Position numbers and translations under genes: made by a program. A stretch of 64,000 nt of DNA from Tribonema minus (lineage: Eukaryota > Sar > Xanthophyceae > Tribonematales > Tribonemataceae): assembly GCA_017506865.1 (NCBI GenBank), contig JAFCMP010000012.1:248001-312000 (forward strand). The letters are read 5' to 3'. Position 1 is the first letter of the stretch, and every line of letters starts with the position of its first letter. Below the pieces are notes generated by a model. It was not told where the DNA came from. It did no database searches and saw nothing but the letters and a program-made list of their open reading frames with translations. This document shows positions 13,218 through 62,947 of the stretch, piece by piece.

Positions 13218-13734
13218 GCGCATACATACGAGAAACTGCTGACACGGGCAGTGCTCGGCCATCAAGATGCCCCACCATACAAACGGTATGCAGCGCAGCA
13301 TACTATATGCTGAGCACAGCATACCTACCTTAGGAACTGCTGATACGGGCGGCCATGTCGCAGTGCTTGGCCATCGAGGTGGCCCACCATACATACAGTA
13401 TGCACCATACGGTACGCAGCATAGCATAGCATACATACCTTAGGGACTGCTGATACGGGCGGCCATCGCAGTGCTCGGCCATCGAGATGGCCCATCATAC
13501 ATACGATATGCAGCACAGCGTAGCATACTTTAGGAGCCGCTGATACGGCCGGCTGTATCGCAGTGCTCGGCCGTCGAGACGGCCCACCATACATACGATA
13601 TGCAACACAGCATAGCATAGCACACCTTTCTTAGGAACTGCTGATACGGTTGGCCATGTCGCAGTGCTCGGCCATCGAGGTGGCCCACATACATACAGTA
13701 TGCACCATACGGTATGCAGCATAGCATAGCATAC
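13218..13734 (-). repeat. array of terminal-exon copies downstream of the glycosyltransferase-like gene
   Basis: At least five degenerate copies (about 90-120 bp period) of the last ~60 bases of exon 5 of the neighbouring minus-strand gene plus ~50 bp of what follows. Each would encode a version of VGHLDGRALRHG.PYQQFLR. Together with the genuine exon end (13735-13797) they make a six-fold array. Some copies keep an AAG/GT-like edge and could act as alternative splice donors or simply lie in the 3' UTR. Confidence 0.85.
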
Positions 13735-16700
13735 CTACCTTAGGAACTGCTGATACGGTCGGCCATGTCGCAGTGCTCGGCCGTCGAGGTGGCCCACCAT
13801 GGGGTCCTGGAGTCCGTCGTTGAGTATGTACGCCTTGTACTTAGCGTGCGCCACCGCCCCCCCGGCCTTGCAGTCGGACAGCATGGCCTGACCAAACGTG
13901 TCCTCTATGAACTGAGGGGGGGGGGGGGGGCAGTCGCGTAGCAATGTGGTGTGAGTGTACCGTATGGTGCGCGGTGACATTATCATGTACTTCAAAGTAC
14001 TTGGGGGTACTATACTTCAAAGAAGCCACTTGTTGCAACATGCAGAGCTGGTGCTCACAGGCCTGTTGCTCCGCACCGACAGAGGTCGACATCACTGATG
14101 AACTGGAGAAGAGGGGGGGGGGCAGTTGCGCAGTGATGTGTTTTGTCAGTCAACGCTACAGAACCCGTGGTCCTCCTAAACACTTTTTGTTATCAAGAGA
14201 AGTGGTGTGCATCATCCTGCATGTACGCATTTCTGTTCTTGAAACCATGCGAACCGCAGCGCCCACCCGCCCTACGGACCAACGTGATAGCATCGGGTAG
14301 AATGAGAGCACACACACACACAAAAAGAGCGGCTGAGTACAAGACAGACAGCCGCTGCGCCAGCTGAAGCAGTAGTCACTGCATGCTCATCACTGCTACC
14401 ATGACATGATACACACTCTGCCGGAGCGGGAACAATGACGAATTTGTGGGCACGCGTGTGGCGGGTTGGGACATGTGTCCTGACTTCATCCTTACCCTAA
14501 CCGTAATCCTGATCTTAACCTGTACTGAGCATCGTCCTTGTGGTGCTTACATCATCGCATGCGGCGCTGAGCGCGGCACTCTGGCAAAGCGCAGCACTCC
14601 ATTTGAAGTTGCCTCAAAGGTTAGCACGTGCACTTTGGCACGTGCCGGCAAATGTCAGCCAAGCACCAGCCACAATACGCTCTGTGCTTACGATGCCCCT
14701 CAGCAACTTCAACTTCAACCTCAACTCTTATTCATGGTGGAAGGCACTTGCGGCTAACCATTCCTTGTCACCTAGAGCTCCACGATCTTTCGATTTGTGT
14801 TTCATTCATCTGTCCATATGGATGACATCCTGCTTCAGATCGCCTTGCAGGAACGGCTTACTTCAAGACATAGGTACAGGCGCTAAACCAGATGGAAGCC
14901 TAGTCACAACTGCAACCTCAACTTTATCGGCCATAATGGCCTGCTTCATATCACCTCGTGCTTTGCTCACACACGTGTAAAGTCAGCTGTCGTGAACATC
15001 GGACTGCATTCATACATCATGTCATGTGCCATTTTGTATGCATGTTTCAGAACAAGTCCCTGCTGTACCACCCACATCATGGGTTGCGTACCACTACGAC
15101 GAGCAAGAGTGATTAGGGCTAGAGAGTTTAAAAGTAGGTTTAGGCCCAGTCACCTGTCCCCTGGCAACGGAGCCGTTGAAAACCGTCTCAAGGTAAAAGT
15201 CAACCTCAGTTATATGCGGCTGCGCGGCGGGGCAGACAGTGACAGGGAAAGGTGCAACAAAAACAGAAACAAGAAGTGCATGAGATTTTGGCTGCAGGTC
15301 CTGACTTTCGACAAACACTGGTGGTGCATCTTGAAGCATACGCCTTGTCTTGAGCGTATTCGAGGTAGAAATATGGAGTGACTTGCTGACCAGTAAGGTA
15401 TACCTTGCTACTCCAGCTAGCAGGAAAAGTTACAAAAACAAAAATGCTCGGATATGTGCATTTTTGGAAGCCCCCCCCCCCAAGTCACGGTCAAATTTGG
15501 GTGAACTCTGTGTATCCACTCGTATGAGAATGTCCCGCTGATGCCGTCCGTTCTGGCATGTGACGCGCACCCAGCCCTGACCGTGTTCCTAGACGCAACC
15601 CCAACCCTACTGCCATGGCAGGCATCGTGAATGCGCAGCTCAAAGCAGCAGCGCTCGCGTTTGCGCAACCAATGAAAGCAGGGGCACGGTGGAGGTGAAC
15701 TTGCCTTGTCGTACCAGAAGTAGAGCGGTTCGAACTTGAAGGGATGTATGTGCCGGTCGGGGGGCGTCAGCACTGCCTTGCTGCTGAAGGACTTGACCTG
15801 CAGGGGGGGAGGGGGGGAGGGGCAGGGGCATATCAGTGCTCAGCACATGTGAGTACCAGTGCAGGGCATGGGAGCACCAGTGCTTCATACAGACTGTACG
15901 CAGGTCAAGCAAGTACGTCAGAAGTGTTGCAATTGCGCTGCGGGGCGTTGTACGAAGATGGCGATTGGCCTCGTAGGAGCGTTCTGTGCTGCGTCATTGC
16001 ATGATGATCTTCTCAGCGGCAACATGACAACACGACCCCACATGCCGGTGCCAGAGCTCATACACACTGCATAGTATTACAGAGTTGATGTGCTGCATGT
16101 GTATATTCACCTGTAGTGTAAGGTTGAGAGCCACCGACCCTTCAACAGTGACAGAGTCATCTGGGCATTCAGAGTGCTCTTCACTGATTCTTGCTTAGGG
16201 CGCGAAACAGCGTACAACCCCATATGCCGGCGCCAGGGCTTAAACAAATTGTAGAGCTGTGTACAGAGATGATGTGCTGCATATATAGATTGATCTGTAG
16301 TGTAACGTTAAGAACAATTGACTCTTCAACAATGACATAATCATATGGGCATTCAGTGCTCTGTGTAAGCTGCGAGCGATAGGGAGTGCTCTTCATTCTT
16401 GCTTAGGGCGCGAGAAAGCCCATATGATCCCTCTGAAGCGGATAAAAGTAACACAGCAGCCGCGCGTACTTTACGCTGTCCCCCTCCGGCCCCGCCATAC
16501 CGCGCACCATGTACCCCAGTTTGAGACCTGACGACACTGCACAGTCCCCGATAACGTGTATGTTCTTCAAACTGAAGCCAGAGCATGACCACATAAAGCA
16601 CAATACCCACTGCTCACCTGTACCCCTGACAAGACCATTTAAAGGTGACCATAAATAGCACAATATTCACCGCTCACCTTCTTCTTGGGGCGTATCGTGC

Positions 16701-18534
16701 TAGTGCTCAGCAGCCCCGCGTACTTTATCCCCTCCCCCTCCGGCCCCGCCATGATGCGCAGCGCCGCCGCGCAGTCAAAGCTGCGCATGATAGGATAGTC
16801 GTGCTGCAGCACCAGCGCGAACCGCGTCGCGCACGACTCCAGCGCCGCCTTCACCGCAAACCCAAACCCCTGGCGCTGCTCAAAGATCATGAGGCGCACG
16901 TTGCGCATGGGGGCGTCACCCACTTCAACTTCTCTGCTGAGACGTGCCACGAACTCGTCGTAGTCGCGCGCCATCTCCGGCGTGATGCGCCCCGTCTTGT
17001 AGCGCACGCGCCCGTGCGCGGTCTGGTAGCCGTCGCACGTGACGATCGTCGTGCAGTCCGCCAGCCCCGGCACCTGCAGAGTTAGAGAGGTTAGGGTTAA
17101 GGGCTCTGAGGTTAGAGCTAGGGTTAGAGCTAGTATTGGCGCTAGGGTTGGGGCGAAGCGTGCGCCGTCTGGTAGCCGTCGCACATGACGACTGTCGTGC
17201 AGTCCGCCTGGCACCTGGAGTGGAATTGAGATTGGTGTTAGGGTTAGTGCTAGCATGAGTGCTGAGTTGGGGCTAAGAGTGCGCGGTCTGGTAGCCGTTG
17301 CACGTGATGACAGCCGTGCAATCCGCCAGCCCTGGCACCTGGAGTAGGGTCAGTAGCATTGGGGTGAGGGCTAGTGTTAGCCCTAGGACTAGGACTAGGG
17401 TGTTGCCTAACGTTGGGGCTCATCGTGCGCTGTATGGAAGCTGTTGCAGGTGACAACGATCGTGCAGCCCACCAGCCCCGGCACCTGCAGTAGGCTTCAG
17501 GAATTGGGCTAAGGTCACTTAGGGTTAGGATGGGGCTAAAATTGGGCGTTGAATTAGGGTTTGGTGTAGGGTCAGGGCTGGGACGGACTGCAGGCTAGGA
17601 TCAGGATCAGGGGTGAGGCGTTTGCCAACCTTTGCGCGAAGACTCTTGCTTCAAGCGACTTCCCGTTAGATAGCACTCCGTAGAATCAAGTACTTCAAGT
17701 GCAAAGGCCGAAAGAAGTGGTAGTGCATTGGCTGCCGTAAGTGACAAGAACTGCGGAATCCGCAAGCCTCGGCGTGTTCCGCGCAGGTGTGCGCCATGCA
17801 CAGGGCTAGCTACTCCAGATTGTTGTGGGCAGCAGAGGCGCAATGATGAAGTGCCCTGATGGCGAAGCTCTGTTGTTGTCGATCGATGGGTATCACAGGA
17901 CAGGTCAGGTTTGTGTGGTCTGAAACAGGCAGTTGTGGCAACCGATGACAGTGTATAGTGCTATACAGGCACATGTTGTCCTGCACTATCAGCTGCTGCG
18001 ATGCAAGCATCCAAACAGCAATGTGCGAGGCAATTGAACCAGTCTTGGTCCAAAAGCGGTCTCGCACAAGCTGGTGCTCGTGTCCATGGACGTGCCATTG
18101 GCCCACATAGACCAGAAACGCAAGACCTGGACAAGACTTTGTCCTTACACAAACAACAGACATCACTTAATGCTGGTCACCGATGGCTGCAGAGATATGC
18201 CGAACAACTGCCATAGGGCATCGCAGAGGATGCTCACCTTGTTGAGCGTCTCCAGGGAGTGCCTTAGCATGGAAAGGTCCGGATTCGTCTGTATCGGGCT
18301 CGTTGTAACAATCACGGTCAGCAGATCCGACAACGGAGGATCCCCACCAGTTTCTGCTCGTGCACCAGCTTCTCCGTTCATTGAGCTCTGGCCGGGGTTC
18401 GCCGAGCTGCGCGCAGTGCGTCTGCGCCGCTTGTAGAAGCGTACAGTGGCAATAATCACAGCCGCCGACACCGCCACCGACAGTGAGAGCGCCAGCGAGT
18501 TGCCGACCAGTGCCGGGGTCCAAAGCAATTTCAT
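13735..18534 (-). CDS. type II membrane glycosyltransferase-like protein, 5 exons
   Basis: Exons in coding order: 18534-18238, 17073-16678, 15797-15705, 15219-15154, 13911-13735; all joins are phase 0 and give 342 aa. Residues ~8-32 form one membrane segment followed by RRRR, so it is probably a signal-anchored Golgi or ER protein. The lumenal part starts with a 'LTVIVTTSPI...N' strand, then VPGLADCTTIVTCDGYQ, a RFALVLQHDYPI segment, FEPLYFWYDK, and FIEDTFGQ ... VGHLDGR near the end. This pattern recalls GT-A-fold (GT2-like) glycosyltransferase-like proteins of algae; the substrate is unknown. Intron 3 begins AAG/GCAAGT, a GC-AG intron. Reading on past the last exon gives AGG then TAG, so I end the gene there; a further exon after a GTAGGT donor is also possible. 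Exons 2 and 5 have degenerate tandem copies beside them. Confidence 0.8.
16021..16420. repeat. ~195-bp tandem duplication in intron 2 of the glycosyltransferase-like gene
   Basis: The units 16021-16213 and about 16214-16415 share order and wording (ccacatgccgg/ccatatgccgg, gatgtgctgcat, ctgtagtgtaa, gggcattca, gctcttca). Both end in cttgcttagggcgcga, the minus-strand form of the retroelement tail hairpin. Confidence 0.7.
16450..16520 (-). repeat. partial copy of the 3' end of exon 2
   Basis: Reverse complement reads MAGPEGDSVKYARLL, matching the MAGPEGEGIKYAGLL segment at the end of exon 2, but it lacks the rest of the exon. It lies within intron 2. Confidence 0.75.
17145..17493 (-). repeat. 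three copies of the start of exon 2, each with an acceptor-like edge
   Basis: Copies near 17155-17216, 17278-17342 and 17428-17493 repeat the first ~60 bp of exon 2 (ccggcacctgcag edge on the plus strand, then cagtccgcca..., ggtagccg). They are separated by TTAGGG-like runs and stand upstream of the genuine exon 2 in intron 1. The frames are damaged. Confidence 0.8.
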
Positions 18535-18799
18535 AGCTCCCCTTGTATGGGAGAAGTGTGGCTATGTGTTATCTGACGGGATGCAACAGAAGAGAGTCTG
18601 CTGGCATTGCCGACTTCGAAGGTGTCTTCTCTCTACAGCTGACAATCATAAAATGTAACTTCAACTTTCTTCACCAACTTGAACTGTTTCATCTGCGCAG
18701 ATTTTCATCTGAAAAACCGCAGGTAATGGTGCGCTAGGAGCAGCAGCTGCGGTGGGAGCAGCAGCAGCAGATTCAAGTTTTTTGCAAACAGCAGTTATC
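18535..18799. promoter_or_regulatory. shared 265-bp divergent promoter region
   Basis: Lies between the start codons of the minus-strand glycosyltransferase-like gene and plus-strand VPS53. It contains acttcaactt (18658-18667) and aacttgaact (18675-18684). A matching ACTTCAACT motif sits in the other divergent promoter at 40019-40044. No clear TATA box. Confidence 0.5.
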
Positions 18800-21700
18800 A
18801 TGGCCGAGGCACCCCACCCGCCGTCGCCGATGGGCGCTTCACAGATGATATCGGAGGGGGTCATGGAAGCCATGGGCAGCGAGGATCCTCTCGACAAGGC
18901 AGACTTCGATCCCATAGCGTATCTCAACCACCTTTTTCCGACAGAGAGGAGCCTTGACAGGTTTGTGTATGTGTGTGTGCGCGCATCCTTGTGCATCTTG
19001 CTTCACCATCGCACCCGCGAAGAGCACCGACTTGCTGCGCTGACAGTGACTTTTTGTATTGCTATTTTGCTTTGCTGCGGCCACATCCTGCATGTCAGGC
19101 TGGACCCTTTCGTGGTGAAGATAACGGCTCAGATCAGCATGCTTGATGCCGAAATCAGCCAGGCTGTTCAGGTAAGGCGCTTACAGCCGACCGTCTCATT
19201 GTGCTTCAAATTGGTGACAACAGCAATCAAATAGTGTCTGACGCTGCTCCCACAACCAGGTAATCTTGTCGTCTGCTTGCCATGATAAAGAACACGGAGG
19301 ACAATGCTGCAGCAGCTGCATTGTGCCTGGCAGCCTCACATAATGACGCCTCAATCAGCCAACGTGGTGCGCGCTTTGACATGTATTGCTGAGGCCTTGC
19401 TGCAGTTGCACCCTGTGCCACTGCACGCGCGCTGCTGCCGCCTACACTGGCGCTATTGCCATTACGACGCTGAGTCACCTCCGTGACGCCTGCAGTCTAC
19501 ACCTTCAAGCCATGTGCCGCTTCCAGTGCTGCTGGTATGCTGTGACTGGCGTCAAACGCTGTTGAGCGTCGTCGAGTGCCACGGGCCGTTGAGCAGCTGC
19601 AACGTATGCTGTCACTCAGGAAATTGCGAGGCAACAGCTGAGCACTTGGCACTCTGGTCTCCGCTGCAGCTGCATGGCACACTGCGGCCATCAGTTGCTG
19701 CACAAGCAGCACAAGCATTGACTCGTGCCGGCATGCTCAGTGCTATTACACGTGTGCGATCTGCGTCGCGCTGCGCAGGCGCAAAGCGAGGCGGGGCAGC
19801 AGGCGGTGCGGGACGTGGCGGAGGCGCGCGCGGCCATTGCGGAGCTCTTTGCCAAAGTCAAAGACATCAAGGGGAAGGTGCGCTATTTGAGAAGCCAATT
19901 ATACTTCAACAGCGCAGAGTGGACACCACAGTGCAGCAAGGCACTCTCGGTGCAGCATCGGTCAGTGCGATTCGCAACGGAGGGGAAGGTGCATGCGCAT
20001 TGACGGCTGAGCTCTGTGGAGCTCTTTGCTAAAGTCAGAGACATCAAGGGGAAGGTGCGCAACAGAAAGAAAGCGCGGCAATCATGGTGTTGTGTTCAGA
20101 GGCATACACTTGCGGAGCGCACATGCTGGGCTGGGCTGCAGCACCCATGTCCAAGCAGTGCAGACCAGGTTGTGGCCGAGGAGGTGTCGGTCTACAAAGG
20201 ACGCCGAACCTCGCTTGGGGCACTCACAAAAAAAGAAAAAATTCAGAAACAACAAGTCCAGTAATACAGGGCAAAAGCTCACAGCGGCAGGGCGCTCTCG
20301 CTGCAGCATCGTCCAGCGCAACCTGCACAGCGTGGGCAAATGTGCATTAGGGTTAAGGTTAGGGATAGCGTCGGCAGCGCAGCAGCTCTGTGTGTCAGAG
20401 CCAGGGGCAACACAAGGAAAGCGCGCTGCTGAGCAGTGCCATTATGACAGCACCGCAAACTGGGCCGCTTGCACAGCAGACGCTACGCAGTGTTTGCGAG
20501 GTATGTATTTATGCCATGCTGCGCTCATCTCGCTGTCTCACTTCGACAGGGGGCTGCTCGTCATGCCCTTGTGGTTATTTGCTGGCACTTGTGAGCGCTA
20601 GGGGGGGGTGATGGCCCATGCGTTTCCTGGACAGCGATGGTTTGCCAGATTACAGGATGTTGAGCGATGCCGCGTCGTCTTCCGATGACTCACCACACGG
20701 CTCAACATATTGTGCATGCAGCATACAACATGCGGCCCTGTGCTGACGTTTAAGCACGTAAAAAAAAAGCATGCTACACTGTGGGCGGCTGATGTCGTGT
20801 GCGAATGCGGAGCACTGCTGCTAGTGGCAAGCTGCACAGCAGTGCTCAGGTGCGCGCAAGACACATCCTACATGTATTATAACAAAACACATCATTGGTA
20901 AATACGCACATGTACCACAAATCCACCAACACCACACAGACAGGGGCAAGTGATGGGTGGCGTGCGTCAGCGATCAGGCACATCTTATGTGCACATCTGT
21001 GAATGCCGCATGGCAGCATGGCACTGGATGCGGGCTGTGCAGTACTACCTGCTGCGAAAGCGCGCCAGTGCTTGAGAACGGCTGCTGGCGGCACATTTGC
21101 GAGACCTGGTACATGTGCACCAGCAGCACTAGTTGAAGCTGATAGGTCCATGATGGGCCGTGTGTGCCCTAACTTCAACCCTTCTAGCGCACCTGCTCCC
21201 CCCTACGGCTCTGCACACGCAACACTGAATTTTCTGGCTGGGGGGCGGGGTGGGAGGGCTATGTAGTATTCTCATGGCGTTGTGCGGCAGTCGTGATGGT
21301 GCGTGTGTCTCACACGTCTCTGCGTGCACTTGTTGGGCGGCCACAGGCGGAGCAGAGCGAGGTCATGGTGCAGGAGATCTGCCGCGACATACGCCAGCTG
21401 GACCACGCCAAGCGGCATCTACAGGTATGTATGTATGTGTGTAAAAATGCACTGGGTAGCACAGAGCTGACGTGTACTTCAAAGTATACATGTAGGTAGG
21501 GTGATAGGCAGGTATAGACTGTTGTTATATGTGTATACTCGTGAACATTGTACAGTCTTTGTAGGTGTAGTGCTTCTGTGTGCCATGACCTGCGGTCAGC
21601 ATGGCCTCGGCGGCAGTGTTCACACAGGCAGTACATTAAGCGCACACCAGGTGTACTCCAGCGCATCAGTGCATTGTGGTGGCCGGTGCACTCCAATTTC

Positions 21701-24700
21701 CATCCCGTGCAGTCGCGTGCGCTCCTGTGCCTTCTGCGCATTGCTCTCGCGCTTGCTCAACTCTCACATTTGGTCTGAGGCTCGCACTTGCAGCTACTTG
21801 ATACTTCCTTCGCAGTTGCACTCACACTTGCAGTTGCACGTGCACTTGCACTTGCAGACCACCTTTGCAGTTGCACTCATGCTTCCACTTGCACTTGAAT
21901 TCACACTTGCACTTGCACTTGCACTTGCAGACCACCATCACAGCGCTCAAGCGGCTGCACATGCTGGTGACGGCGGTGGATCAGCTGCAGGCCGTCGCGC
22001 AGGCGCGCCAGTACAGGGAGGCCGCCAACCTGCTGGACGCTGTGAGGCAGCTACTCACGCACTTCCAGCCCTATGCTGCGGTGCCCAGGTCTGTAGCGGC
22101 TTCAACTTGAGTTACTTGAAGTGCTCAAAGCATCTTGGAAGTAATAGGTGCTAAGAGAAGTTGTGGTTGACTCGTGCACTTCCAGCCATACGCTGCCGTG
22201 CCCAGGTCTGTCGCGTCTTCAACTTGTCATACTTGAAGTAGTCTGCTTTGAGAGACGCTGTGAGGCAGCTACTCACGCACTTTCAACCCTACACTGCCAT
22301 TCCCAGTCTGTAGCATTTTCAACTAAATGTCTTTCAAGTGATAGGCTTCGAGAGATGTTGTTGTGGGACAGGCTTGTCGAACATGATCATACTATGAAGT
22401 GCTTTGAAGGGTTTGTGAAAGCTTGGGAGGCACCTCCTCTCACACACTTCCAGCTCTATGGTCTGTAGCGCTTGCAAGTAGGTGGGCTTCCAGAGGTGCT
22501 GTGAAATATGAATCTGTAACTTGCTTTCACGCATATACTGCAATTATGATAGTCGACTGAACTTCATAGCCCATGGTAAGCTCTGTCTGCAATGCAAGTA
22601 TTCGTGCACGTGATGCAGCTCCCTGCACTTGTTCCATCGCCCGTCACCAGACGGCAGCGGCGGAGCGTGGCTCACTTCAACTTCAAATGCCGCGTTCGAT
22701 GCAGTTCACACTCAGCAAGACGCAATGGCAAATTGAGTGGCACAGCTTTGCGTAGGGGCGCTTTGTGTGGCGCCGCAACTAGCTTCAGGGCACGTTCACC
22801 CTCTGCGCCTTATATCGGAGCTGCTGCCGCTGCCGTTGCCAGAGACTGGCAGAGCTGAAAAAAAATGCGTAGGGGCGTGGCTAAGGTCAGCATTGACCGC
22901 CGCTATCATCCACTATGATCACAGTGCCGAGGAATGCGGTATAGTAGCGGCGCAACTGAAATTTCCAGTTCAGTCAGCACAGCATGGTAGCAGGTCGAAG
23001 TTTCAGGTTGAAGTTCACAGACGCCTCAAGCCGCCGCAGCCGCCGCCCCCATCATCACCAGCACGGCAGTGCCGAAGCTTGCAGCGGTGGCAGACAAATC
23101 TAGTCAAGGGTCAGCACCAGCACAGAGCGCCTCACACCGCCTCAATCGCCGCCACCGCCATCGAATCTAACGCTGAGGAAACCGTGCTGGCGCCATCAGG
23201 GTTAGGTTTAGCCGTTGCAGCCACGGCCGGATCTGCAAACTTTAGGAAGACAGCAGTGGCACGGTATTTTAGCGCAGCACAGAGCGCCTCACGCCGCCTC
23301 CATTGCCGCCGACGCCACAGAATCGCGGAGCTACGGAACACGGTCGCGGCGGTGAAGCGCGACCTCACATCGCAGATCACCGCCGCATTCGACGCCGTCG
23401 GGCAACTAGCTCCGGGCTCCGCGGATCTCGAAGCTCTGGAACGTGTGCCTGCGGACATTCCCGGACAGTTTCGGCCGCTGCACGAGGCGTGCCTGGTGGT
23501 GGACGCGCTGGTGAGCGCTGAGCGCTGCTGCACATATGGGGGGGCATGTATGTATGTGTGTGTGAGGGCATGTGTGTTTTGGACACTTCCGGCCGCTGCA
23601 CGAGGCGTGCCTGGTAATGGGTGTGCTGGTGAGTGCTGAGCGCTGCTGAGCACGGGGGGTGTATGTATGTACGCATGCATGTACTGCGGAAGTGTGCATG
23701 TGTGTTGCGCTGTGGTACTGATGAAGCTACTCATGGCAACGTATGTATGCTATTTTTATGCAGGGCGCCAAGGCGCGACGTCAGCAGTTGAAGCAGTACG
23801 ACACGCTGTTCCCTCTATGTTGAGACCAATGATTCAGTAAATTACTAATGCGTCATGGGTACGTATGTATGCTGTTTTTTGTTCTCGTACAGGGCGCCAA
23901 GGCGCGAAGCCAGCAAGTGGCTGCCTTCTGCCGGCAGCAGCTCAAGCAGTATGACGCGCCGTTCCCTATGTAATGAGACCAAAATGTCATCGAGTTAGTG
24001 ATGCACCTACTTATTACGTGTACACATGGTTCTGTTTTTGTACAACGGTTACAGATGAAGTCACTCATGGGTATGTATGTATGCTGCTTCTGCACAGGGC
24101 GCAAGGCACAAACTCAGCAGGTGGCCGCCTAGCAGCTGAAGCAGTACGACACGCTGTTCCCTCTGTGTTGAGACACATATCTCATCAAAGTACTGATGAA
24201 GTACTCATGGGTACGCATGTATGCTGCTTTTTGTGTTTCATTCAGGGCGCCAAGGCGCGCAGCCAGCAGGTGGCCGCCTTCTGCCGACAGCAGCTCAAGC
24301 AGTACGACACGCTGTTCCCGCCATCGTCTGTGGCGGGACCAGGCGCTGCGGGGCCAGAGAGCATGGACAGGTGAGGAGTAGCTCACGGGTTGAGGTTGGG
24401 GCTGGGTCAGGTTGGACTGCTGCATGAATTCCCATCCATGAAATTTGCAAAATGGTGTGGTTTGGATGCTTCTCTGTGCGGCACTGCCAATTGTTGGGCG
24501 AAGCACTCGAGTCTGCTCTGCTTCTGCACTTGGGTCCGTCCCTGAGACAGTTTCATCATTCTTGTGTCTTGCCACAAAGTAGTGTGACAATGGGCTGTGA
24601 CGCTTGCACGTGCTATGGGTCTGCGGCGATGCCACTAGACCCAGGCTTGGCCCCCATGGCGATGAGCTCTTCAAACCAGGTCAAACTGGAATTTACCCTA

Positions 24701-51200: not shown

Positions 51201-54200
51201 CCTTCAAAGTTGGGTTGTGCATCAGCTTCAACTTGAGTCACCAAGGGCCAACATTAGATCCAAGGGTCTGTGGCATAGGTGTGCAGTTGAAGTTGACTGC
51301 AGACTGAAGTATGCATCCTGGGTGCGTAAAAAAATCTGTCAGCTCAACAACATGGCCACCAGACCTCACAGGATGCGTCGCTCTCAGTGAACGATGTCAA
51401 GTCCCACAGTAAAGATGTGCTTCGCAACACGCTTGATGCCAGAAAACCAGTACACAACGGCAGGTTTTTCAATGGGCTTGGGGTCTGATCTGTTTCACTT
51501 TAGACCACTCGTGTGGTTTCTTTACTCATCTTTAGTGGCTGCCACTCGAGAGTGTAAAATTGTTGTCCTTCAAGGAAGTGTTTCTGGACAAACCATGGTC
51601 AGCAGTAGAATGCGCATACCTTGAGGTGCAATGTAAACTTCACAACAGTAAAACTGATGCATCACACACAGTGCATGAGCCATTGCCATGTATATGCTGA
51701 AGTACAAGGTTCAAGTTTTCCCATTACGTGCCATTTTTGAAGTATATTTGTTCATGTCCGACAAGCCAATGTATTGCAGCACTTTATTCGCTCTTTCAGA
51801 GAGTCTCACTGCTGCGCAACCAAGGCGCGCCAGAGAGCTGTTGTGCTCTGGTCACCAACTTCAAGTGTGACACCCCTGCTCACATCATCGGAACGGCACT
51901 TGTGTGGTCATTTTGGTGTGACAATCCATCGCCCAGCTGATCAGTAGGCACGACAAGCGCTGGATCATGAACCCAAGATGTCCGTCCTCCCCCGACGCAG
52001 AGGGTGCTTTCACAACACTTGACAAGTTGCGGTTGCACGATCACAGTGACCGCTTTATGCCAGTGCCGGTAGGCCGACAAAATTGCTGGAACACCTCAGG
52101 CTGAACATGAAACCTGCACATATCCCAACATACTGCTCGTTGTTGCATCTGCATTTGACCAATTTCAACCATCAGGAGGGGAAGGCTGAGGTGGGAGGAT
52201 CGATCTTCAACCTCGTGAAGAACATTGTTGGCAGCGGCATACTGGCGCTGCCTGGGGGCGTTGCGGCCTTCTCACACGCAAGGGTGAGTCATCTTGAGCA
52301 CTTCTGCACGTCATCGATGTCATTGCTCAGCAGGCATCGTCACACGCAAGGGCAAGCATGAGCCGTGCGTAGCACTGCTGCATGTCACAGACGTCGTTGC
52401 CCACCTCCACATGTACATGCACACGCCTCGCATGACGGCGTTCGTGTACACAAACGGCATATGAGTATCATCTTCGACTTGGCAACATTGTGCATTGGCA
52501 GCATCGCGGCGATTGGCGCTGTGATCTAATGTAGCAGACCAAATTGAGCGGTGCTGAGCATCGCTGCGTGACACACGCATTGCGGCTCAATACCAACTCT
52601 ATGTGCTGTGAATCTGGCTTGTACGGTGGATGGCTTACGAGTATAATGACCAACTCAGCAGCATGTTATGCACTGGCCAATGGCGTGTGCTGTGCTGAGC
52701 ACTGCTGCATTCAAAACGGCAAGATGTGGCGCTGGCACAGGGCACTGGCAGAGGGACAGAGAGGGCTGGTTGCTTCCATGATTCTATCAGCCTATGTCTA
52801 AATTTCAAGTGTGCAGCTCACATATGTAGTGTCATGTGGCACTGCCTTTTCCATGGTTCTATCGGCCGATGTCTGAACTTCAAGTGCGCGTATCACACAG
52901 TGCCATGCGGCACTGCCTCTTCATCAAGAACATGAAGTGCATGGTGTGTCTGTATGCTATGCCTTGAAAGTGCGACAGTTGTGCACTGATCATGTGAGAG
53001 CGTACAACTATTCATGTTGAATTCATGTGCCCGTTTTTTACTGTGTGCAGGGTGCCGTGGTGCCCGCAAGCGTGCTCATCCTGCTGCTGGGCCTGCTAAG
53101 CGGCTACTGCTTTAGGTGAGCAGTGCTGCATGGTACACCCTAGCACAAACTAGGGCTTCAGGAACTCCCAGCCCTAAGTTGGCAAGGGCCAGCAGACCCT
53201 TCATTCTGCACGCAACTGGACCAACCGTGGTGCAAGAGATGCATGTCTTGTCAGTACTGTAACTGCCGATGGCAGTTTTGTAACAGTTGGCGTACGTCAC
53301 TGCATGTTCAACACTGAACGCTGGCACTGACTGATGCGGCACCACCGCCTGATGGGGCTGTGCATGCGCTTCGGCACCTACGGCTTCGTGCTGTGATGGC
53401 ACGCTGACGCGGGGCTGTGTGTTGTGTGTGTGCCAATCATTGCCTCCTGCTGATCATCACCATCATCTGCTGATCATCACCATCGCAACCTGCTGAGCAT
53501 CACCATCACCAGCTGCTGAGCATCACCGTCCCACCTGCCGATCATCACCATCACCTGCTGATCATCACCATCGCCGCATGTGAGCATCACCATCACCTGC
53601 CGATGGCGCCGCTGCGTGGCTGTGTGTGTTGATCATCACCGCCACCTGCCGACGACGCTGATGCATGCCCGCTGTCATTATTTATCATCATCACCATCGC
53701 CACTGCTGCTCATCGCCATCATCCTGCTGATAACGCTGCCGCGTGACTGTGAGTGCTGATCATCACCATCATCTTGTGCTGATGCTGACAGCCTCATTGG
53801 GCGGGCGTGCGCTGCCACCAACGCCAGGAGCTATGGGGATGCCTGGGCGGCGGTAAGCATCATGTTGCTTGCGCTAGCGGAGTGCATGTCTGCGTGCAAA
53901 TCTATGATAAATATATACTTCGAAGTATGAGCCAAAGAACATAACTGGAGAGGAGTTACGCAGTGTCAGGAGCCATGGAGATGCCTGGGCAGCGGTGAGC
54001 ATCATGTTGCTTGCGTTAGCGTCGCGCGTGCGTGCCTGTGTGTGTGTATTCATGATAATTACATGAGTGCAAAATAACATACTCTGAGAGAAGCTATGCG
54101 CTGCAGTGAACTCGGTTGGTAACATATTCTGAGAGAAACTATGCAATGCAGTGAACTCGGTTGGTGAGTGATAGAAGGGGTACGCTGTTGAGGTCATTGT

Positions 54201-57200
54201 GATGCTGCCGGTGTGTTTTTGGAATCAGAGTGGTAGAGCCGAAGCAGGTCTTTGGACAGGAGCTACGCAGTGAAGCGCACTCAACAACATATCCTGAGCA
54301 GTAGTGGTATTGTGAGTCCAGATGGGTGATTACCAGACTTCAAGTTGAGGCCATTGTGATGCTTTTCAAAGCGTTTGGATTTACCATGTAGCAGCAGACA
54401 ACAGCACTGTCACGCTCTGCATACATGCTGCTGTGGCGCCTTCATGAGTGTGTGTTGATGCTCGATTACTCACACAAACTACAAAGTAAGCGCACGGCTA
54501 TACTTCAACTGCGGCATCTGACACATGTAGCAACTGTTTTACCCTTTTCCCATGTGCTTCACGTTTTGGTGGCGCAGTCAGGGCTGGTGCTGGTCAACGC
54601 TGAAACTTCAACTCCTGAGTTCAACTGCTGAGCATCACATTTAACGAAGCCTCATTTGTTGTTCTGCCCTCACTGTGTGCAGACAGTTGAGCCGAAGACG
54701 GTGTGGATGCCGCTGTCGTCCGTTGTGGCCAAGGTACGGTACGGAGCACTGTCACATGAATTACGTACATGCACCTGTGTATTGTACCAGACAATTTTCA
54801 TGAGGTGCTAGGTGAGGGTTACTGCTTGCCCGCATTGACTGCAGTGGTTAGTGTGTGAATTGGGGGCAGCTGTTGCTTGACACCATGGTCGCCAGCACTC
54901 ACAGTGTCTCGCTGAATTTGAGAGTCTTAAACACTTTGTCAGGCTCTTGTTTGCAAAGATTAAACATCACAAGTTTGATGGTCATGTCATTGCTGTCCCA
55001 GAGTGCATCTGCAGGAAGTCCACCATTGTGGCAGGCAAGCAGGATTGGAATGGGAGGGGGATGGGGGGGGGGGGGGGTCGACTTGCACTCATGTGTTCAT
55101 GCCTCTTGCGGTAGTAGTAGTAGCACAAGCTGACCCTGCAAGGCCCCTCACTGCACAGCACGCGTCAGTAGTTCACAGCAGTTCACAGCGGTCCACAGCA
55201 GTCCACTTGCCCATGCTCGCATCTCAAGCCACACATAAACACAGCGCCGCGCCCCATCACCCGTCTAAGGTGCATCCCTGCCTGAATCGCGCACTGCCTG
55301 TCTCCCCCAAAAACCCTCTTTACTTGTCTGGATTATGTGCTTCATCACCATTGGCGGCATGTCTGCAAGCTTGCTCCATGCCTCAGCTTGACGCATTCAG
55401 CTAAACTATATTGCCACACACTTGCCTTCATGCGCTCTTACGCTGAGCCACGTATACTTTCTTATCTCCCGCGCAGACCTTCTTCACGTGCCTGAGCTAC
55501 TCCATCATCATCGGCGACACGTTTGCGGCACTGGCACAGACGTTTGCCGCGCCGGCATGGCTTGCGTACCGCCCCACCATTCTCTCCGCCATTTCGGGGT
55601 GAGCACCTGCTGACAACGCGCTGAAATCATAAATTTTCAAATCAAGTATTGCATGCCCAAAGTTTGAGTGCGGCATCAGGCTCACAAGCCTTAAGAGATG
55701 GCTATTTTACGCACCCAGGGCAGCTATAGTAGCTGCTTGGCACTGTAGGTACACGTGTTCACGCAGTGTCAGGCGGCAGGTTGCGTGCTCAGTATGTGAT
55801 TGATGAGATGCGCCTGCCGCGTGCGTTGAGACATCTTTGCAATCAGCTGCACAAAAAAGCATCTGTGCAAGCAATAGTCAGGCCGTCCCCGTTGCAAGTG
55901 CTCTTGGATGGCATCAGGATCGCTCATTCTTGTAGGCGCAGTCAGCCTCAGGAATAAAAGATCTGTGGTTACCCCCAACTTTAACTTGAATTTTCCTCAT
56001 AGTCAGCCATGGTGGGATTTTTAACCTTACATTTGAAGTTCTCCCGCCATCTTCACAGCACACTGTGTCCTGATATGTTGTCTCTACTGTGGCTGTATTC
56101 CTGCTGCCTGCCATTCGTGCAGCGTATTCCTGCTGCCGCTGTGCCTCATGACGGACCTGAGCCCGCTGCGGTACACATCCATCGTGGGTATTGCGGGTAC
56201 ACTGTACACGGCGGGTGTGATGGCTCTCAGGTATGTACATGTATGATTTGAAGCACAGTAGTACTGTATGTATGTATGCTGCGCTACACGTCTATTGTGG
56301 GCATTGCGGGTACCCTTGATACGGCGAGTGCAATGTCTTTCTGGTAGTGTGACCGTACTGCTTTCTAAGCACAATTTCAGTTCAGAAGTAGTATGTATGT
56401 ATGCCATGTCTGCTGTGCTGCACATCCATCGTGGGCATTGTGGGGGCGCTTTATACGGCGACTGCCAGTGGCTTTCAGGTATTGTGTATACATGTACCTC
56501 AAGGTAGGTGTGTATTTGTTGTCCGGTGCTCAGCCATGAGCGCCTTATACGTGTATGGAAGTACCAGACAGGCATTGACAGGTACTTTGATTGAAGTCAC
56601 GCACTGCGCACGCATTTGCACTCCTACTATGCGTGTTCAACACGTGTTCACACACGTGTGTGCATTGTGCTCTCGCACACCTCACAGGTACTTTGATGGC
56701 AGCTACGCACTGGGTGGCCGCTTCTTCAACGCCGCCGCTTCCGCCGCCAAGGGGCCCCTGTTCACGGGCTCCGCTGCCCTCAACCCGCTGTCGCTGATAC
56801 TGGTGTCCATGCTCAGCACAAGGTCAGTACTATTCATACCTACTGTACCTCTACCTTCGGAAGTACTGCTCATACTGGTGTCAATGCTCGCCACAAGGTC
56901 AGTATTAGTTATACGGTATACTGAACCATACCTACCCTCTGGATTTGAGAGTTGTGTTGATGTTCAGCAAAACTTCTACCTTAGGGGGCACCGCTCATAC
57001 TGGTGTCGATGCTCAGCACAAGGTCAGTGGTCATACCTACCCTCTTCATTCGGACGTCCGGTCATACTGGTGTTGATGCTCAGCGCAAGGTCAGCAATCA
57101 TGCCTGATTACCCGCTGGCGCTCTCATCTGGTGTCAATGCTCATCTACTTTCTTCATTTGCACCTCGGCTTGCGCCAGTTGTTTGCAGTTTAATGCTTAG

Positions 57201-60200
57201 CACATGGTGCTTAACGTAATGTTGAAACAGATGATTTCTTCTTAGCGCATGTCGTTACTCTACACACCTTTTTAAATAAACTTTTATAGGTTTCTGTGTG
57301 TTGCGATTTAAGTCTTTTTTTTATCAATAAAATCCCACCCCAAACTTTTCAAACAATCTTGACCAAGTTTTTGACTAAGGACCAAACAATAATAACCACT
57401 AAAAAGTGTATTAAATGATTGTGGAAATGAGTAATACCAATTATAATGGGCGTACAAAAAAGTCTGTACATTTTTGGATGTTTTAGTTCAAACAATTATA
57501 ATGGGCGTACAAAAAAGTCTGTAAATTTTTGGATGTTTTAGTTCAAAATAAATATATTTTAAGCTATTCATTAAAAACTACATGGTCCCAAATAGCAATT
57601 GCAGATTGTCGACACCATTTGTAAATAAATAAATCGTTGCTGAGACATGCTTACAATGAGACTCTAAAAGTAAATCATAAGCATACCATTTTTTTTTGAT
57701 TATACAATTATTAGCTTTTAAATTATAAACAACGTTCAGTTTAGTAAAGTTTAAATTGCAAGAATAAATCATTCCAATACGTGGTCCTTGGCACAGAATT
57801 GGGGGTGGCGACTGTTTAATAAAAACACAGGTCTCTGCAAAATTTAGGGAAAAAATACAATATAAATGAAAATATTATATGTACTGTTTTAAACCTGGAT
57901 CTTAATTGTCTTGTCAAAAAACCACCACTTAAAGTTTGAATTGCCAAACAAGTTTTAATTCGATTACTAAATGCAACAAGACCTGAAATATGGTCAACAC
58001 TGCTTTTGGCTTTGGCCTTTTTATCATTACCTGTCTTAAATAATTTGTCGTTTATCATTAATAATTTATAAATCGTAATCTTTTAAAATTATTAATTTTC
58101 AATAAGACAAAAGCCTTAAGTTTTTAAACGAAAGCGATGATTGTACATACTTAAAAAATCATATACAACCTCAAAACGATTTTCACGCTTCTTTTTACTT
58201 CTAGCCGGACTTGAACCAGCACGCAATTGCAAAAGATTTTAAATCTTTCGTGTCTACCAACGTTTTTGTAGTTTTCTCGCTCCACGGAAGTTTGCTTTTT
58301 AAGTACCCAAAGTAAAAAAAATAATAATTTGCGATATGGATTCACAGTAAAACCTAATAAAGCTAAAAAACTAAGCTGAAAATGTAAATTATGAAAAACT
58401 TAATTTTAATATCTTTTTTAAATGCACCAATACCATGGCAGCACACCAAACAACTACTTGATTTTTGTCTGTTTTTAAAAATTCCTAGCATTGTTGAAAT
58501 ATTGTTGGCTAAACCTGCGCCAATATTGGACCCGGTCATCATCATAGACTATTTCAAGTCAGTGCCTAATTAGGCGCCACCGGTTTGCGGAACTGACACG
58601 TTCATGGCATCGTGCTGCTGCCATTTTTTCGTTTCGTTTTTTGCAGTTTCATCGCCCACTACAACGCTCCCAAGTTCTACCATGAACTGAAGGTATGCAC
58701 ACACGGTGCGAATGTATGTATAGACGTGCGTCATGCAGGGACACCGTGCATTTCTACAAGAGTTGCCGTAGCTGCAAGTGGCGCCCAAGCTGAGAGTACG
58801 TTACATAATCAACTGCAACGGGACAAGCTCTACAATGAGGTCAAGGCACATCACTTGGGTGCATGAATCAGCACGGCATGAAATTCGCATGCGCGTACGC
58901 TCATCTGGGATTTCATACAGTGCGGGGATGAACAGAGAAAGAACCGCCAGCTGTACTGGAGCACACTGACACAGCGTGTAGTCGCGTAGACTTCTGAATT
59001 TGTGGCCTTGGTTGATTGAAAGCGGGCGTGCGCCTTCAGCCTCCTGTACTCAGGCAGATTATTCAAGTCACAGGGTGTGGAAGTCACAGGGCGAGAATAC
59101 CTGTGCTGCGGAGGATCATGCCGATGAGCCACGTGACCGCATACCAGTGTACGTGTATACGGTATGTACGTGTGGCGTGTATGCGCATTCAGATGGCAAT
59201 TGTGCCCGGTGCACGCAACAAAATGACCCACATGGCGCATTGCCATCAGCGCCTCCCTGATTGGAGACAACACCGGAGAGTATGCGACCTGCACTCGTGA
59301 ATCGAGCGGTCACCAATAAGAATGCAACTTACCACCGGTGCCTGTCTGTGCGTTCCACCATGCTGCCCCTGCCCCTCAGGACAAGACTGTGCCCAAGTAC
59401 AACACGGTGGTGGGGACCAGCTTTGGGGCCTCCATTCTGCTCTTTGTGGTCATGACGGTCTTCCCCTTCCTGACATTTGGCGGGCACTCCAGCGGGTAAG
59501 CGTGCACTCTGCTTGACACATGTTTCAAAGACAGCTGGGCCAATGCTTGCATGAAAAAGTTCGTGGGTGTGTGGGTGCGTGATAAAATTTGAAGTTGACG
59601 TGCCAGTGTAGTGGGCGCCAAAAATGTGCACACTCAGGGCACAGCTGCCAGGTAAACCTTATTCATGAACACCACCAGTGCAACTTGTCGAGTGGCCTAC
59701 GCTGGCAGAGTTGATTTGAAGACTCTGTGTGTGGACAGGTCACAAAACCACAAAGGAATACAGCAGTGACGTTCTCCATGTTACAGTGGTGAAGGTCACT
59801 GCCATTTTGCGCTTCAATTGCTCACCGCACACTTTGCTGGCAGTTGGGTCTGGCATTGAGTCTTTGCTGCGCACGCATCGTAACTCTTGCCCCAATGCTG
59901 CATCAACTACACCAGCCAAGGAAACACCTCAGTCGTGCAAGATAACATTTTTCACGTGCTGTTGTTATTGTTCATTTCCTGTGTCCGCCTGCGTGTGCCT
60001 GATCTTGGACTGATGACACATCAGTGATGTCGTGGTACTTGTTCGCATGCTCTCAGGTAGTGCCACTGCCAATAATGACACCGTAGCTCGTGACTCTTGC
60101 ACCGGCGCTCCCAATCTTGCGTGATGTTCAGACACCTTGCATCTACACAAGACTCGCTTTGTTGAAGTTGTGTGTGGCAGTGCTCCTCTCCACTCCTGCT

Positions 60201-62947
60201 CCTTCCGGCGCAGGCTCATATGGAAAAACTGTGCCAATTGCGACCACGTTGCCCGTGTGCTGCAATGGAAGTTGAAGTTGAAGCCAAGTGCGGCAGCGCT
60301 CATATCCCACCCTGTATGCTTGTATTCTCTCTCACAGGCTCATATTGAACAACTACGCGAATGGTGACAATCTGGCTACCATGTGCCGTTTGGCCATCGG
60401 TGCCAGCATTGTGTTTGGGTACCCTCTGACGTTCATCACTACTAGGGAGGGGGTCTTCTCAGCACTGGGGGTGACCAAGCCCACCAAGACGCAGGTGACG
60501 AGACCCACTGCTTTGCGCCACACCTGCTGCAACATTTACGTACTGCAATTGGGGGTTCTGTAGCTGCTGCACCAAATTCTCAAGCATACTGTGGCTGGCA
60601 CACGTGCTTAGCAGAAGTTGGACATGGATCGATAAACCTAGTATACACTGCTGTGGATATGTGTGTCAACAAAAGCACGTGCTATGCGCATCATCAACTC
60701 TAGGTATCCTGCATCGCAACCGATGACGCCTGCGTGATTGAATGATGCGGCAGGTTTCATTGTGCACACAATGCTGTTCATCACTTCCGCACAGTAAAGG
60801 CTGCAAAATGATGCTTCACGGTACATCGATATACAAACTGGCACATGACTGTACGCCCAGGTCACCTTGAATGATGCGGTGACAGGCAAACGCATGCATG
60901 ATGAAGGCGACGACAATGACCCGGCTAACACTTTAAGCGCCACTTGAACTTGTCAAGCGCAACTGCTATCATAATTAGCTAATGTAAGTGTGATGGTTGA
61001 AAACGTTACCTGAGCACTGCTGCTGATGCTCCGCAGATCCGCGTCGCGACGGTGGCAATTCTCAGCGCCCTCACCGGCTGCGCCATGGTGCTGCGCAACC
61101 TTGGCTTCGTGGTGGTGAGTCGAGCGCTGCTTTGCGTGTGACTTGAGCGCTACTTCGAGTGCAAGTTGAGCGCCACTTCATGAGTGAGTTGAGCACTACT
61201 TCAAAAGCGAGTTGAGCGCTACTTCAAGTGTTGGCTCCGCAGCTGTTGGCCAAGTATTGCTGAGCACCTGTGTGCCTGCGTGCGCGTTTTGGGTGCAGAT
61301 TATGATTTCTGGTTCTGAGTACCGTCTGTTGCTGCGTTGATGTATCAGCGTTAGCTTTAGGTGTGGATGATGGCCACAAGTGTTATGATCAGGGTTAGGA
61401 TCAGGGTTTGGGGGAGGGTTAGCAGGTGCAGACATGAATGCGTGAACCACTTGAGCATGAATGCTGTCAGCTGATGCTCAGCTAACGATCGTGAAGCTGC
61501 TCAACACGTTTCTCTTAGGAAGCATGATGCAGTTCAAGGGCATCAGTTTCATCCAGCACCTGCTGAATAAGTCAACTGCCCAGTTGTGCTCTCTAGGTGC
61601 ACTAAGTCTTCGTGTCAGAAGCTGTATCAATATCAGAGTCATGCTGATGTGATTTTGGCATCTTCACATTGCTGCAAAGAGGGTGGGACCAACAGCGCAT
61701 CAGTGAGTCCAGGTTTGTGTGTAGGTTCGTTCGCCAGTCAGTGTTCTTCAATACTCGTTATTTGTTAATGCGATACTCGGCTGAAGGCATCGTAGCATGT
61801 ATTGCATACTGCGAAACACATGCCAGCTTGAAGCATATGCTCCACGAGTAGCGCATGCACAGAATCGAACATTGTCAGTTCACTGTGTGTGCAGAACAGG
61901 GCACTTCAGCAAACCCCTTGTCTCATGACCACAACTCACCAAGCGTGCTGCGCGGCTGCGTTGGCTACTCAGGCTTTCGGCGGTGCGCTACTGGGCAGTG
62001 CCATCATATACGTATTCCCTGCAGTTATGTGGGTGGGAAAGTGCAAGGGGGACATGAAGAGGGGGGACAAGCTGACTGGCTGGCGCAAGGTGAACTTGCC
62101 GCATGGTTGAACGATGCTGCCGTGCCTTGTATTGCGAGCGAGCGTGGTCAGCCATGCATGGAACAGTCAACGAGTGACTTGGTTCGGCAATGTTTTGGCC
62201 GTTTCACTCTGAAGCATTGCCGCGTCACGCACGTGATACACCCCGGTTGCGGCGGGCTGTTGCACCTGATGCACTATCAGTGTACAGTTGTTGAGCCCCT
62301 GCCTTCTCGGTTTCGTAATGCATGCGCCTGCTCGAACAAAAGAGCTGCGAGTGTGAAGCGGAGCACTCAGCTGTGCACAGCCGCTGTGCGCTGCGCAATC
62401 AGACAGAGCCGTACATTGTCACTTTCTCGTGTGCTGAGCACCTGTCGCAGTGTCACTTGCTGCACCAGTCTACCATCTCGTGAATGCGCCTCATGTATTG
62501 ATGCGCTGGCTGCGTCCGGTGGAGTTCTGTTGACCACTGTCGCCATGTGCCAGTCAAACTCCTCATTGGACCCCCCCCCCCCCCTTCATCAGTGCGTCAG
62601 ACGGGGTGCTTTTGGGCACTGCCGTGCAAAGTGACCAACTCATTTATAAACGCCCCTCATTGCGCAAAGCATCGGCTGCGTCAAGCAGGGTGCATTGAGC
62701 AGCGCCGGTGCGTGTGCCAGGAGCACTGGCACCAATCGATCAAGCTCACCGCGTGCCAGCATTTTGTTTCTGTCACCACGGCTCCTGCCTCGCAAGCCGG
62801 CCAACTTATCAACGCCCTTCCTTCGCTCATCGCATGCGACACCCGCGTCAGGCGGAGTACCTGGCCAACTACGGCATCATCGGGCTGGGCTCGCTACTGG
62901 GTGCCCTGGGCGCCGTCATCTGCGTCCTCAAGACGTTCGTATGGTGA
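48267..62947 (+). CDS. AAAP-family amino acid transporter with cleavable-type leader, 15 exons
   Basis: Exons: 48267-48334, 49554-49686, 52176-52283, 53051-53115, 53792-53852, 54683-54733, 55477-55598, 56123-56230, 56688-56822, 58647-58692, 59380-59495, 60338-60494, 61037-61114, 61973-62089, 62852-62947; phases agree at all joins, 486 aa. From exon 3 the protein shows the amino acid/auxin permease signature GSIFNLVKNIVGSGILALPGG, then about ten more hydrophobic segments, including LLPLCLMTDLSPLRYTSIVG, SFIAHYNAPKFYHEL and AFGGALLGSAIIYVFPAVMW. It should move amino acids across a membrane with H+. Exon 1 encodes a signal-peptide-like leader (MRASAASAALLLVAAAPCAA) and exon 2 an Ala/Gly-rich spacer. 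The start is inferred from phase fit and from the exon 2 tail copy at 49740; exons 1-2 are less certain than 3-15. Confidence 0.87.
49738..49797 (+). repeat. copy of the end of transporter exon 2
   Basis: catcgggacctgtgaaaggcgcagcagctagcgaa..ccgtggtgcacaag/gtgatgaattac repeats the exon 2 tail and donor 109 bp downstream, which supports exon 2 as a real exon. Confidence 0.87.
50230..50545 (+). repeat. ~170-bp tandem duplication in transporter intron 2
   Basis: Units near 50237-50375 and 50405-50545 share gtaccacataat, tgctgtacat, gcgtcatggt.agctgactgccaagt and gcattg.cttgtagtccaaac. Non-coding. Confidence 0.75.
50990..51095 (+). repeat. short tandem repeat around atgaggccacca
   Basis: Three diverged units of atgaggccac(c)a..tgcactttgccac in transporter intron 2. 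Confidence 0.6.
53455..53775 (+). repeat. minisatellite of tgctgatcatcaccatcacc units in intron 4
   Basis: About a dozen diverged ~20-40-bp units. It ends next to the exon 5 acceptor at 53791. Confidence 0.85.
53965..54005 (+). repeat. copy of the end of transporter exon 5
   Basis: tcaggagccatggagatgcctgggcagcg/gtgagcatcatgttgcttgcg repeats the exon 5 tail, donor and early intron about 150 bp downstream of 53852. Confidence 0.87.
56278..56490 (+). repeat. two copies of the end of transporter exon 8
   Basis: Copies near 56278-56345 and 56410-56482 repeat tacac(g/a)tc.attgtgggcattgcgggtac...tacggcg and the following gtatgtatg intron text. The genuine exon ends at 56230. Confidence 0.87.
56865..57205 (+). 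repeat. three to four copies of the end of transporter exon 9
   Basis: Copies at about 56868-56905, 56990-57025, 57060-57092 and a more decayed one after 57125 repeat ctcatactggtgtc.atgctcagcacaag/gtcagt and ctaccctct-type intron text. Confidence 0.87.
57438..57547 (+). repeat. two tandem copies of a 55-bp AT-rich unit
   Basis: caattataatgggcgtacaaaa... occurs at 57438 and 57493, nearly identical over 55 bp. Confidence 0.9.
58196..58291 (-). tRNA. tRNA-Leu(UAA)-like sequence, probably degenerate
   Basis: On the minus strand, a T-arm GCTGG-TTCAAGT-CCGGC, an anticodon arm AAAGA-TTTAAAA-TCTTT with anticodon TAA, a long variable region and the class II leucine phrase GGTAGACAC are clear. The acceptor pairs ACTTCCG with TAGAAGT with one mismatch. 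The D-loop is about 15-20 nt too long, so it may be a pseudogene. The sequence is A+T-rich like organellar tRNAs. Confidence 0.6.
60055..60280 (+). repeat. degenerate copies of the start of transporter exon 12
   Basis: 60213-60265 (gcaggctcatatggaaaaactgtgccaatt.cgacca) matches caggctcatattgaacaactacgcgaatggtgaca of the genuine exon 12 edge at 60338. A weaker one lies near 60055-60105 (aggtagtgccactgccaataatgacacc). Confidence 0.7.
62699..62778 (-). mobile_element. short fragment of the retrotransposon ORF in transporter intron 14
   Basis: agcgccggtgcg...ctggcaccaatcgatcaagctcaccgcgtgcca...ttctgtc matches plus-strand positions about 5880-5965 within the retrotransposon ORF, with few substitutions and one 6-base gap. 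The orientation matches a minus-strand element. No tail is seen at either end. Confidence 0.8.

Follow-up and report, generated by a model that had tools for sequence, protein, structure and literature searches.

The DNA considered here, referred to as the window, is a stretch of 64,000 nucleotides from Tribonema minus, lying on contig C12 (535,174 bases) of a genome of 158 Mb in 554 contigs. Within it are four intron-containing genes, those for VPS53 and an amino-acid transporter together with a fucosyltransferase-like and a glycosyltransferase-like gene, and edges of their exons recur as ladders of degenerate copies in the adjoining introns. A sequence-only reading first drew attention to these ladders, and the concern here is where they lie, how they have decayed and how they may have arisen. 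The two genes with the firmer models are:

18863..37388, + strand, VPS53 gene, 20 exons, carrying most of the ladders (spliced alignment to P0001, 77% identity, full length)
52170..62947, + strand, amino-acid transporter gene, 13 exons modelled, start not fixed (PF01490, E 5e-32)

Gene models

Spliced alignment of the window to P0001, the VPS53 of a relative, gives GT-AG in 19 of 19 introns and a single uninterrupted protein, the aligner being restricted to AG acceptors and to GT or GC donors. When the genome was searched with PF04100, this locus alone was found. The transporter model was refined by hand to one open frame and is a 99% match to a deposited Tribonema minus protein, with 390 of 392 aligned residues identical and ungapped up to exon 12, after which the deposited model has a different ending. 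Both proteins have their closest named relatives among brown algae and related lineages. Self-trained gene models, which gave VPS53 27 exons rather than 20, were dropped and a gene finder trained on the VPS53 exons was used instead; it returned 18 of the 20 exactly and found the other window genes too. The fucosyltransferase-like gene has an O-FucT match under the Pfam cut-off and the glycosyltransferase-like gene, with exons predicted ab initio, had no match in a Pfam search, thus the exons of these two genes are less certain.

Copies of exon edges in VPS53

Residue-level alignments in VPS53 show the end or start of an exon, its splice site and the flanking intron repeated as one block. Across the window genes the nearest copy usually lies 76-215 bp from its exon edge, and the identity of copies spans 68% to 98%, the duplication events therefore span a range of ages. 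The edges concerned are:

19838..20060, + strand, exon 3 donor edge (ends 19877) and a copy at 20015-20060 with GT kept (93% over 46 bp)
22036..22324, + strand, exon 5 donor edge (22088) and two copies at 22170 and 22254 (85-86%; GT kept in 2/2)
23118..23324, + strand, exon 6 acceptor (23321), copy of the intron segment leading into it (86% over 50 bp, of which 4 bp are exonic)
23463..23671, + strand, exon 6 donor edge (23510) and one copy (84% over 92 bp)
23716..24319, + strand, exon 7 acceptor edge (24246) and three degenerate upstream copies with deletions (71-80% in the longer alignments; AG kept in 3/3)
24970..25467, + strand, exon 8 acceptor edge (25413) and two upstream copies (68-70%; AG kept in 1/2)
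27245..27443, + strand, exon 10 donor edge (27282) and two nested copies (96% and 78%)
27776..28709, + strand, exon 11 acceptor edge (28646) and two upstream copies (93% and 78%)
28791..30409, + strand, 3' part of exon 11 and a copy 1.5 kb downstream with an insert between them (90% over 67 bp, stopping short of the donor by 7 bp)
32593..33101, + strand, exon 15 donor edge (32625) and four to five copies, first unit 85 bp (98% by Tandem Repeats Finder (TRF), other copies 68-82% in the longer alignments; GT kept in 2/4)
34622..34874, + strand, exon 17 donor edge (34641) and two copies (77-80%)
35396..35787, + strand, exon 18 donor edge (35424) and three copies, unit 108 bp (BLAST 75-85%, TRF 87%; GT kept in 2/3)

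The exons that had been listed for VPS53 are largely the same, with 3, 5, 6, 7, 8, 10, 11, 15 and 18 all borne out. Exon 16, in the numbering of the 20-exon model, has no edge copy in the alignments and its listing probably refers to exon 17, whilst the match at exon 9 consists of a G-run only.

The segment of intron 11 that parts the end of exon 11 from its copy (28955-30320) has runs rich in ACCGGT/TACTGGT at both ends, as judged by eye, and an internal duplication (29559/29789, 78%). Short interstitial runs of telomere-like GGGTTA also occur in introns and flanks (36110-36147, 27418-27440 and 1218-1254).

Copies in the other genes of the window

Edge copies are also found in the remaining three genes:

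53825..54042, + strand, transporter exon 3 donor edge (53852) and one copy (BLAST 83%)
56165..56486, + strand, transporter exon 6 donor edge (56230) and two copies (BLAST 71-77%)
56792..57105, + strand, transporter exon 7 donor edge (56822) and three copies (BLAST 80-85%)
13220..13800, - strand, glycosyltransferase-like gene, donor edge 13738 and four copies (BLAST and TRF; exon ab initio)
17013..17528, - strand, glycosyltransferase-like gene, acceptor edge 17073 and three copies (BLAST; exon ab initio)
44592..44851, + strand, fucosyltransferase-like exon 6 acceptor edge (44819) and one copy (87%; O-FucT match below cut-off)
45611..45856, + strand, fucosyltransferase-like exon 7 donor edge (45665) and one copy (84%)

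In the transporter there is in addition a copy of the exon 10 acceptor at about 60215, seen by eye, and a 23-bp array at the exon 11 donor, found by TRF. Edge copies are thus present in this gene as had been claimed, at exons 3, 6, 7, 10 and 11, but the numbers originally given (2, 5, 8, 9 and 12) differ. The two sites put forward for the glycosyltransferase-like gene are both present, at donor 13738 and acceptor 17073. For the fucosyltransferase-like gene the copies at exons 6 and 7 hold, and the array before exon 5 ends 37 bp short of the predicted exon start; the exon 7 donor does not enter the counts of families, side and splice dinucleotides given below, as the gene model ends at that exon.

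Further features of these genes are a second protein similar to that of the fucosyltransferase-like gene (40288-45665), encoded in L004 on the same contig as judged by eye, and an AT-rich region in transporter intron 7 (57300-58500) that holds a 98% doublet of 55 bp and looks foreign to the surrounding sequence. The window also contains a retroelement at 2076-9197, with a frame of 1780 residues that carries a reverse transcriptase domain (PF00078), and repeats at its boundaries that are both direct (2123-2311 and 7675-7878) and inverted (2128-2254 and 9193-9067). This split-repeat layout resembles that of DIRS elements, and a predicted protein in L011 appears similar to it by eye. A tRNA search of the window called none.

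Extent across the genome

The copies reported in the window are confirmed by its self-comparison, with 70 direct against 5 inverted matches less than 3 kb apart. The duplication process is genome-wide, as sampled in 20 arbitrary 10-kb pieces and in a 250-kb sample. Counting matches less than 1 kb apart, the 20 pieces hold 141 direct and 12 inverted ones, and 18 of these pieces, which come from many contigs, contain close direct repeats. By local BLAST, direct copies make up 12.6% of the bases of the 250-kb sample and 15.1% of those of the window, whereas TRF accounts for 6.1% of the sample. With exons called ab initio by the VPS53-trained gene finder, the sample has a coverage of 0.156 for predicted introns, 0.104 for exons and 0.087 for intergenic DNA, and about a fifth of predicted exon edges lie in local copies.

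Shuffling within 30-bp blocks reduces the 221 local matches of the 250-kb sample to 0, and a chance origin is thereby excluded. The sequence-only reading had called the scale unusual; it is high but not extreme. For comparison, tandem repeats are reported at 3.35% in Ectocarpus (PMC12477816), where transposons took precedence so that the method differs.

One sampled piece, L017 (C13:100001-110000), has kinase-like and kinesin-like genes, named by eye, that seem to carry ladders of exon ends, and the gene finder appears by eye to read copy-derived stretches into both predicted proteins.

Placement and divergence of the copies

All 39 alignments counted in the window place the copy on the intron side of the copied edge, and in the sample 72 of 77 do so, with 3 covering both edges and 2 on the opposite side. 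These are counts of alignments and not of independent events, and they exclude copies that overlap another modelled exon as well as sample exons with a low coding score. Retrotransposition or dispersed templated insertion was also considered as a source of the copies; it is disfavoured, as nearly every copy falls on the intron side of its edge. An introner or transposed element would recur at many unlinked places; the single segment so tested, a query of 401 bp around the VPS53 exon 3 copy, matched itself and exon 3 only.

Copies mismatch their source at 12% of positions in exon-derived parts and at 19-20% in intron-derived parts. The ratio of nonsynonymous to synonymous differences between exon and copy, adjusted for context, is 0.53 (0.43-0.64) in the sample and 0.60 (0.40-0.74) in the glycosyltransferase-like and fucosyltransferase-like genes, compared with 0.47-0.51 in simulations of a neutral copy and a constrained exon, thus these values mostly fit neutral drift. 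VPS53 exon 9, with its G-run, was omitted from one control in each of two of these analyses, and the context-adjusted figures replace earlier ones with less or no correction (0.26 raw; 0.31, 0.37 and 0.48; 0.30 and 0.48; and between copies 0.35 and 0.56).

Of the window copies, 20 of 24 donors and 10 of 11 acceptors (30/35 in total) retain the splice dinucleotide, as do 25 of 35 donors and 34 of 40 acceptors among the sample copies. Mismatch at the dinucleotide against that in the intron flanks is 0.104/0.163 for window donors, 0.045/0.212 for window acceptors and 0.087/0.197 for sample acceptors. That it falls below the flanks in these three of the four classes is the neutral prediction, because only the copy is free to drift. 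There is no sign in the window copies that decoy splice sites are purged, and 11 of the 24 donor copies equal or exceed the used site in score. The description of the ladders as decoy splice sites, with one copy intact and the others decaying, is therefore upheld, with GT or AG mostly kept and identity ranging down to 68%; the local duplication process proposed earlier is likewise supported, and the unit that is 98% identical shows that it includes young events.

Origin of the ladders

Frequent local tandem duplication that is tolerated on the intron side is probably the best explanation of the ladders. The Tribonema minus genome would undergo frequent small tandem duplications, with units of about 75-230 bp, that are visible above all in introns. 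A duplication wholly inside an exon would usually be purged, whereas one that straddles an exon edge would be tolerated: the used splice site comes from whichever copy adjoins the remainder of the exon, and all other copies would end up within the intron. These extra copies would then drift through substitutions, indels and further rounds of duplication, giving a ladder, and exon ends may be prominent in part because the source exon evolves slowly and old copies stay recognisable. The placement on the intron side is what would be expected, since contiguous duplication together with purging of exon-breaking copies predicts that copies of right edges lie to the right and those of left edges to the left. 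Head-to-tail junctions are clear at VPS53 exons 15 and 18. The excess of direct over inverted matches, the even spread of duplication along introns once exons are masked and the presence of intron-only families also speak for this explanation. What is observed directly is the sequence of the copies, their placement and divergence, and their occurrence in the 250-kb sample; the tandem mechanism, the mostly neutral drift and the rule of tolerance are inferred.

Four observations weigh against this explanation. Firstly, the aligned length reaches at least 0.8 of the spacing in only 11 of 75 pairs at 85% identity or above (window and sample together); the imperfect head-to-tail pairs may reflect later indels, deletions, insertions such as that at exon 11, and multi-copy arrays. 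Secondly, a neutral simulation puts 25-30% of detected families at exon edges, compared with 16 of the 25 genic duplication families that touch an edge in the window and 42 of 79 in the sample. The simulation includes slow exon evolution, and was first run on random introns and then redone on real sequence, the last time with fewer events. Thirdly, the ratio of nonsynonymous to synonymous differences in VPS53 and the transporter is below the neutral expectation of about 0.5, at 0.33 (0.24-0.46) between exon and copy and 0.36 (0.28-0.52) between copies. Lastly, in donor copies of the sample the dinucleotide mismatch is 0.157 against 0.169 in the flanks, a loss of GT above the predicted halving, which could result from mild selection against decoy donors or from errors in exon calling.

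Exon-edge families are thus over-represented about 2-fold relative to the neutral simulation, and this bears on the alternative in which exon-intron boundaries are mutational hotspots, for instance through transcription-linked breaks or a step in chromatin or composition, so that tandem duplication starts there preferentially and introns accrete at their edges. Under a shift null the expected number of edge families is 9.2 in the window (P printed as 0.0, 200 shifts) and 31.9 in the sample (P 0.02), both below the observed counts. The excess persists among families at 85% identity or above, with 8 of 11 at an edge in the window against a null of 2.6 (P printed as 0.0) and 15 of 29 in the sample against 7.2 (P 0.005). 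At 90% or above, edge families stand to intron-only families as 3:1 in the window and 8:3 in the sample, which has 3 exonic families besides; in all there are 6 intron-only families in the window and 24 in the sample.

Coverage of individual edges points the same way in the sample, where with exons visible 41 of 185 donors and 43 of 185 acceptors are covered against 0.128 in the interior (1.7-1.8x) and simulated ratios of edge to interior are only 0.5-0.9; the figures for VPS53 and the transporter are 9 of 31 donors and 3 of 31 acceptors against 0.151. A rotation test restricted to sample exons with a coding score of at least 8 gives 33 of 145 donors and 32 of 147 acceptors, each against 19.4. 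In VPS53 alone the same test gives 6 edges against 1.8 for copies at 85% identity or above (P 0.0065), but 11 of 38 edges against 7.4 when all copies are counted (P 0.11). The higher coverage of introns than of intergenic DNA noted above also speaks for a hotspot.

Against a hotspot stands the profile obtained when exons are masked, which has no peak beside the splice sites. In the sample duplication is then flat along introns, at 0.09-0.17 in all bins, with 0.13 at 0-20 bp on both sides and 0.122 in the interior. The exon-masked ratio of edge to interior is about 0.84 in the sample (38/370) and about 0.23 in VPS53 and the transporter (2/62), compared with a simulated 0.33-0.49, the simulated measure being per base and the observed one per edge. 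The sample exons are moreover ab initio calls, and the partner of a spanned edge was itself called an edge at 17 of 42 donors and 9 of 43 acceptors, thus part of the edge excess could come from the exon calls.

Duplication at an even rate predicts no preference for edges, and this is not what is seen, though with exons masked the profile is flat. Since edge families are about twice as common as the model predicts, duplication may to a moderate degree truly favour exon boundaries. That the boundaries are hotspots from which introns accrete is nevertheless unlikely. A wider form of the idea, in which boundaries are true duplication hotspots in this lineage, introns grow outward from splice sites and the spliceosome routinely picks the exon-proximal site among a near-identical ladder, is doubtful but may be entertained tentatively. 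Of the earlier view that introns are enlarged from their boundaries, the growth of introns is supported and edge families are in about 2-fold excess, but the process is not confined to boundaries.

Selection might instead have kept the copies as alternative exon ends or regulators of splicing. The differences of VPS53 and transporter copies fall mostly at synonymous sites after correction for sites, among copies as well as between exon and copy, and this would suit such a role, as would the retention of GT or AG in most window copies and the high scores of many donor copies. However, the ratios in the other two window genes and in the sample fit neutral drift, several copies have indels inside the exon-derived part and the deposited transporter protein has no copy in its 392 aligned residues, all of which makes retention by selection improbable.

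The sequence-only reading had also pointed out that introns can be created by tandem duplication of AGGT-bearing segments, and the ladders might be remnants of such intron creation from exon segments. The mechanism is documented in other eukaryotes (PMC3443670), and it predicts that one end of an intron is a copy of the other. In the window 0 of 41 introns have a match linking donor and acceptor sides, and the similarity of the two sides of the same intron is 0.254 against 0.257 for random pairs. Among the 185 predicted introns of the sample, 12 have their two ends linked, by 13 matches altogether; all 12 are in L017 and the 50-kb block L024-L028, and half are no longer than 120 bp. These 12 are candidates for multiplied exon-intron units or recent intron gain, with coding repeats as a further alternative. 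As an account of the ladders, intron creation of this kind is very hard to credit, and the window contradicts it.

An assembly or collapse artefact is just as hard to credit, and assembly error is unlikely, because the copies range from 68 to 98% identity and carry private indels, and close direct repeats recur in sampled pieces from many contigs.

Relation to known systems and significance

Gao and Lynch (2009) reportedly described internal gene duplication, in which small tandem duplications arise inside genes and sometimes include splice sites. The ladders of Tribonema are alike in both respects, and with their copies direct, close and on the intron side they are best explained as a variant of it. 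They differ in that the copies accumulate in existing introns and leave the protein unchanged, often with several per edge and mostly decayed. In a further known case a new intron and an inserted piece of exon arose, whereas the window genes have gained no intron and their extra copies are intronic. Ordinary intronic minisatellites and tandem repeats share the head-to-tail arrays and units of 50-200 bp, but here the units hold coding sequence and a splice site, and the copies are few and diverged.

Internal gene duplication is a known theme (PMC3443670 and PMC4974935). A literature search found nothing on tandem duplication and introns in Xanthophyceae and, as judged by titles and the openings of abstracts, no paper on a ladder pattern at exon edges; Tribonema is not mentioned in the available part of PMC9860276.

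A simple gene finder appears to put copy-derived stretches into predicted proteins, which calls for caution in annotation. If the pattern is general, it would provide a direct and datable route for the lengthening of introns, and, with many edges having two to five copies of the same site, a natural experiment on the choice of splice sites.

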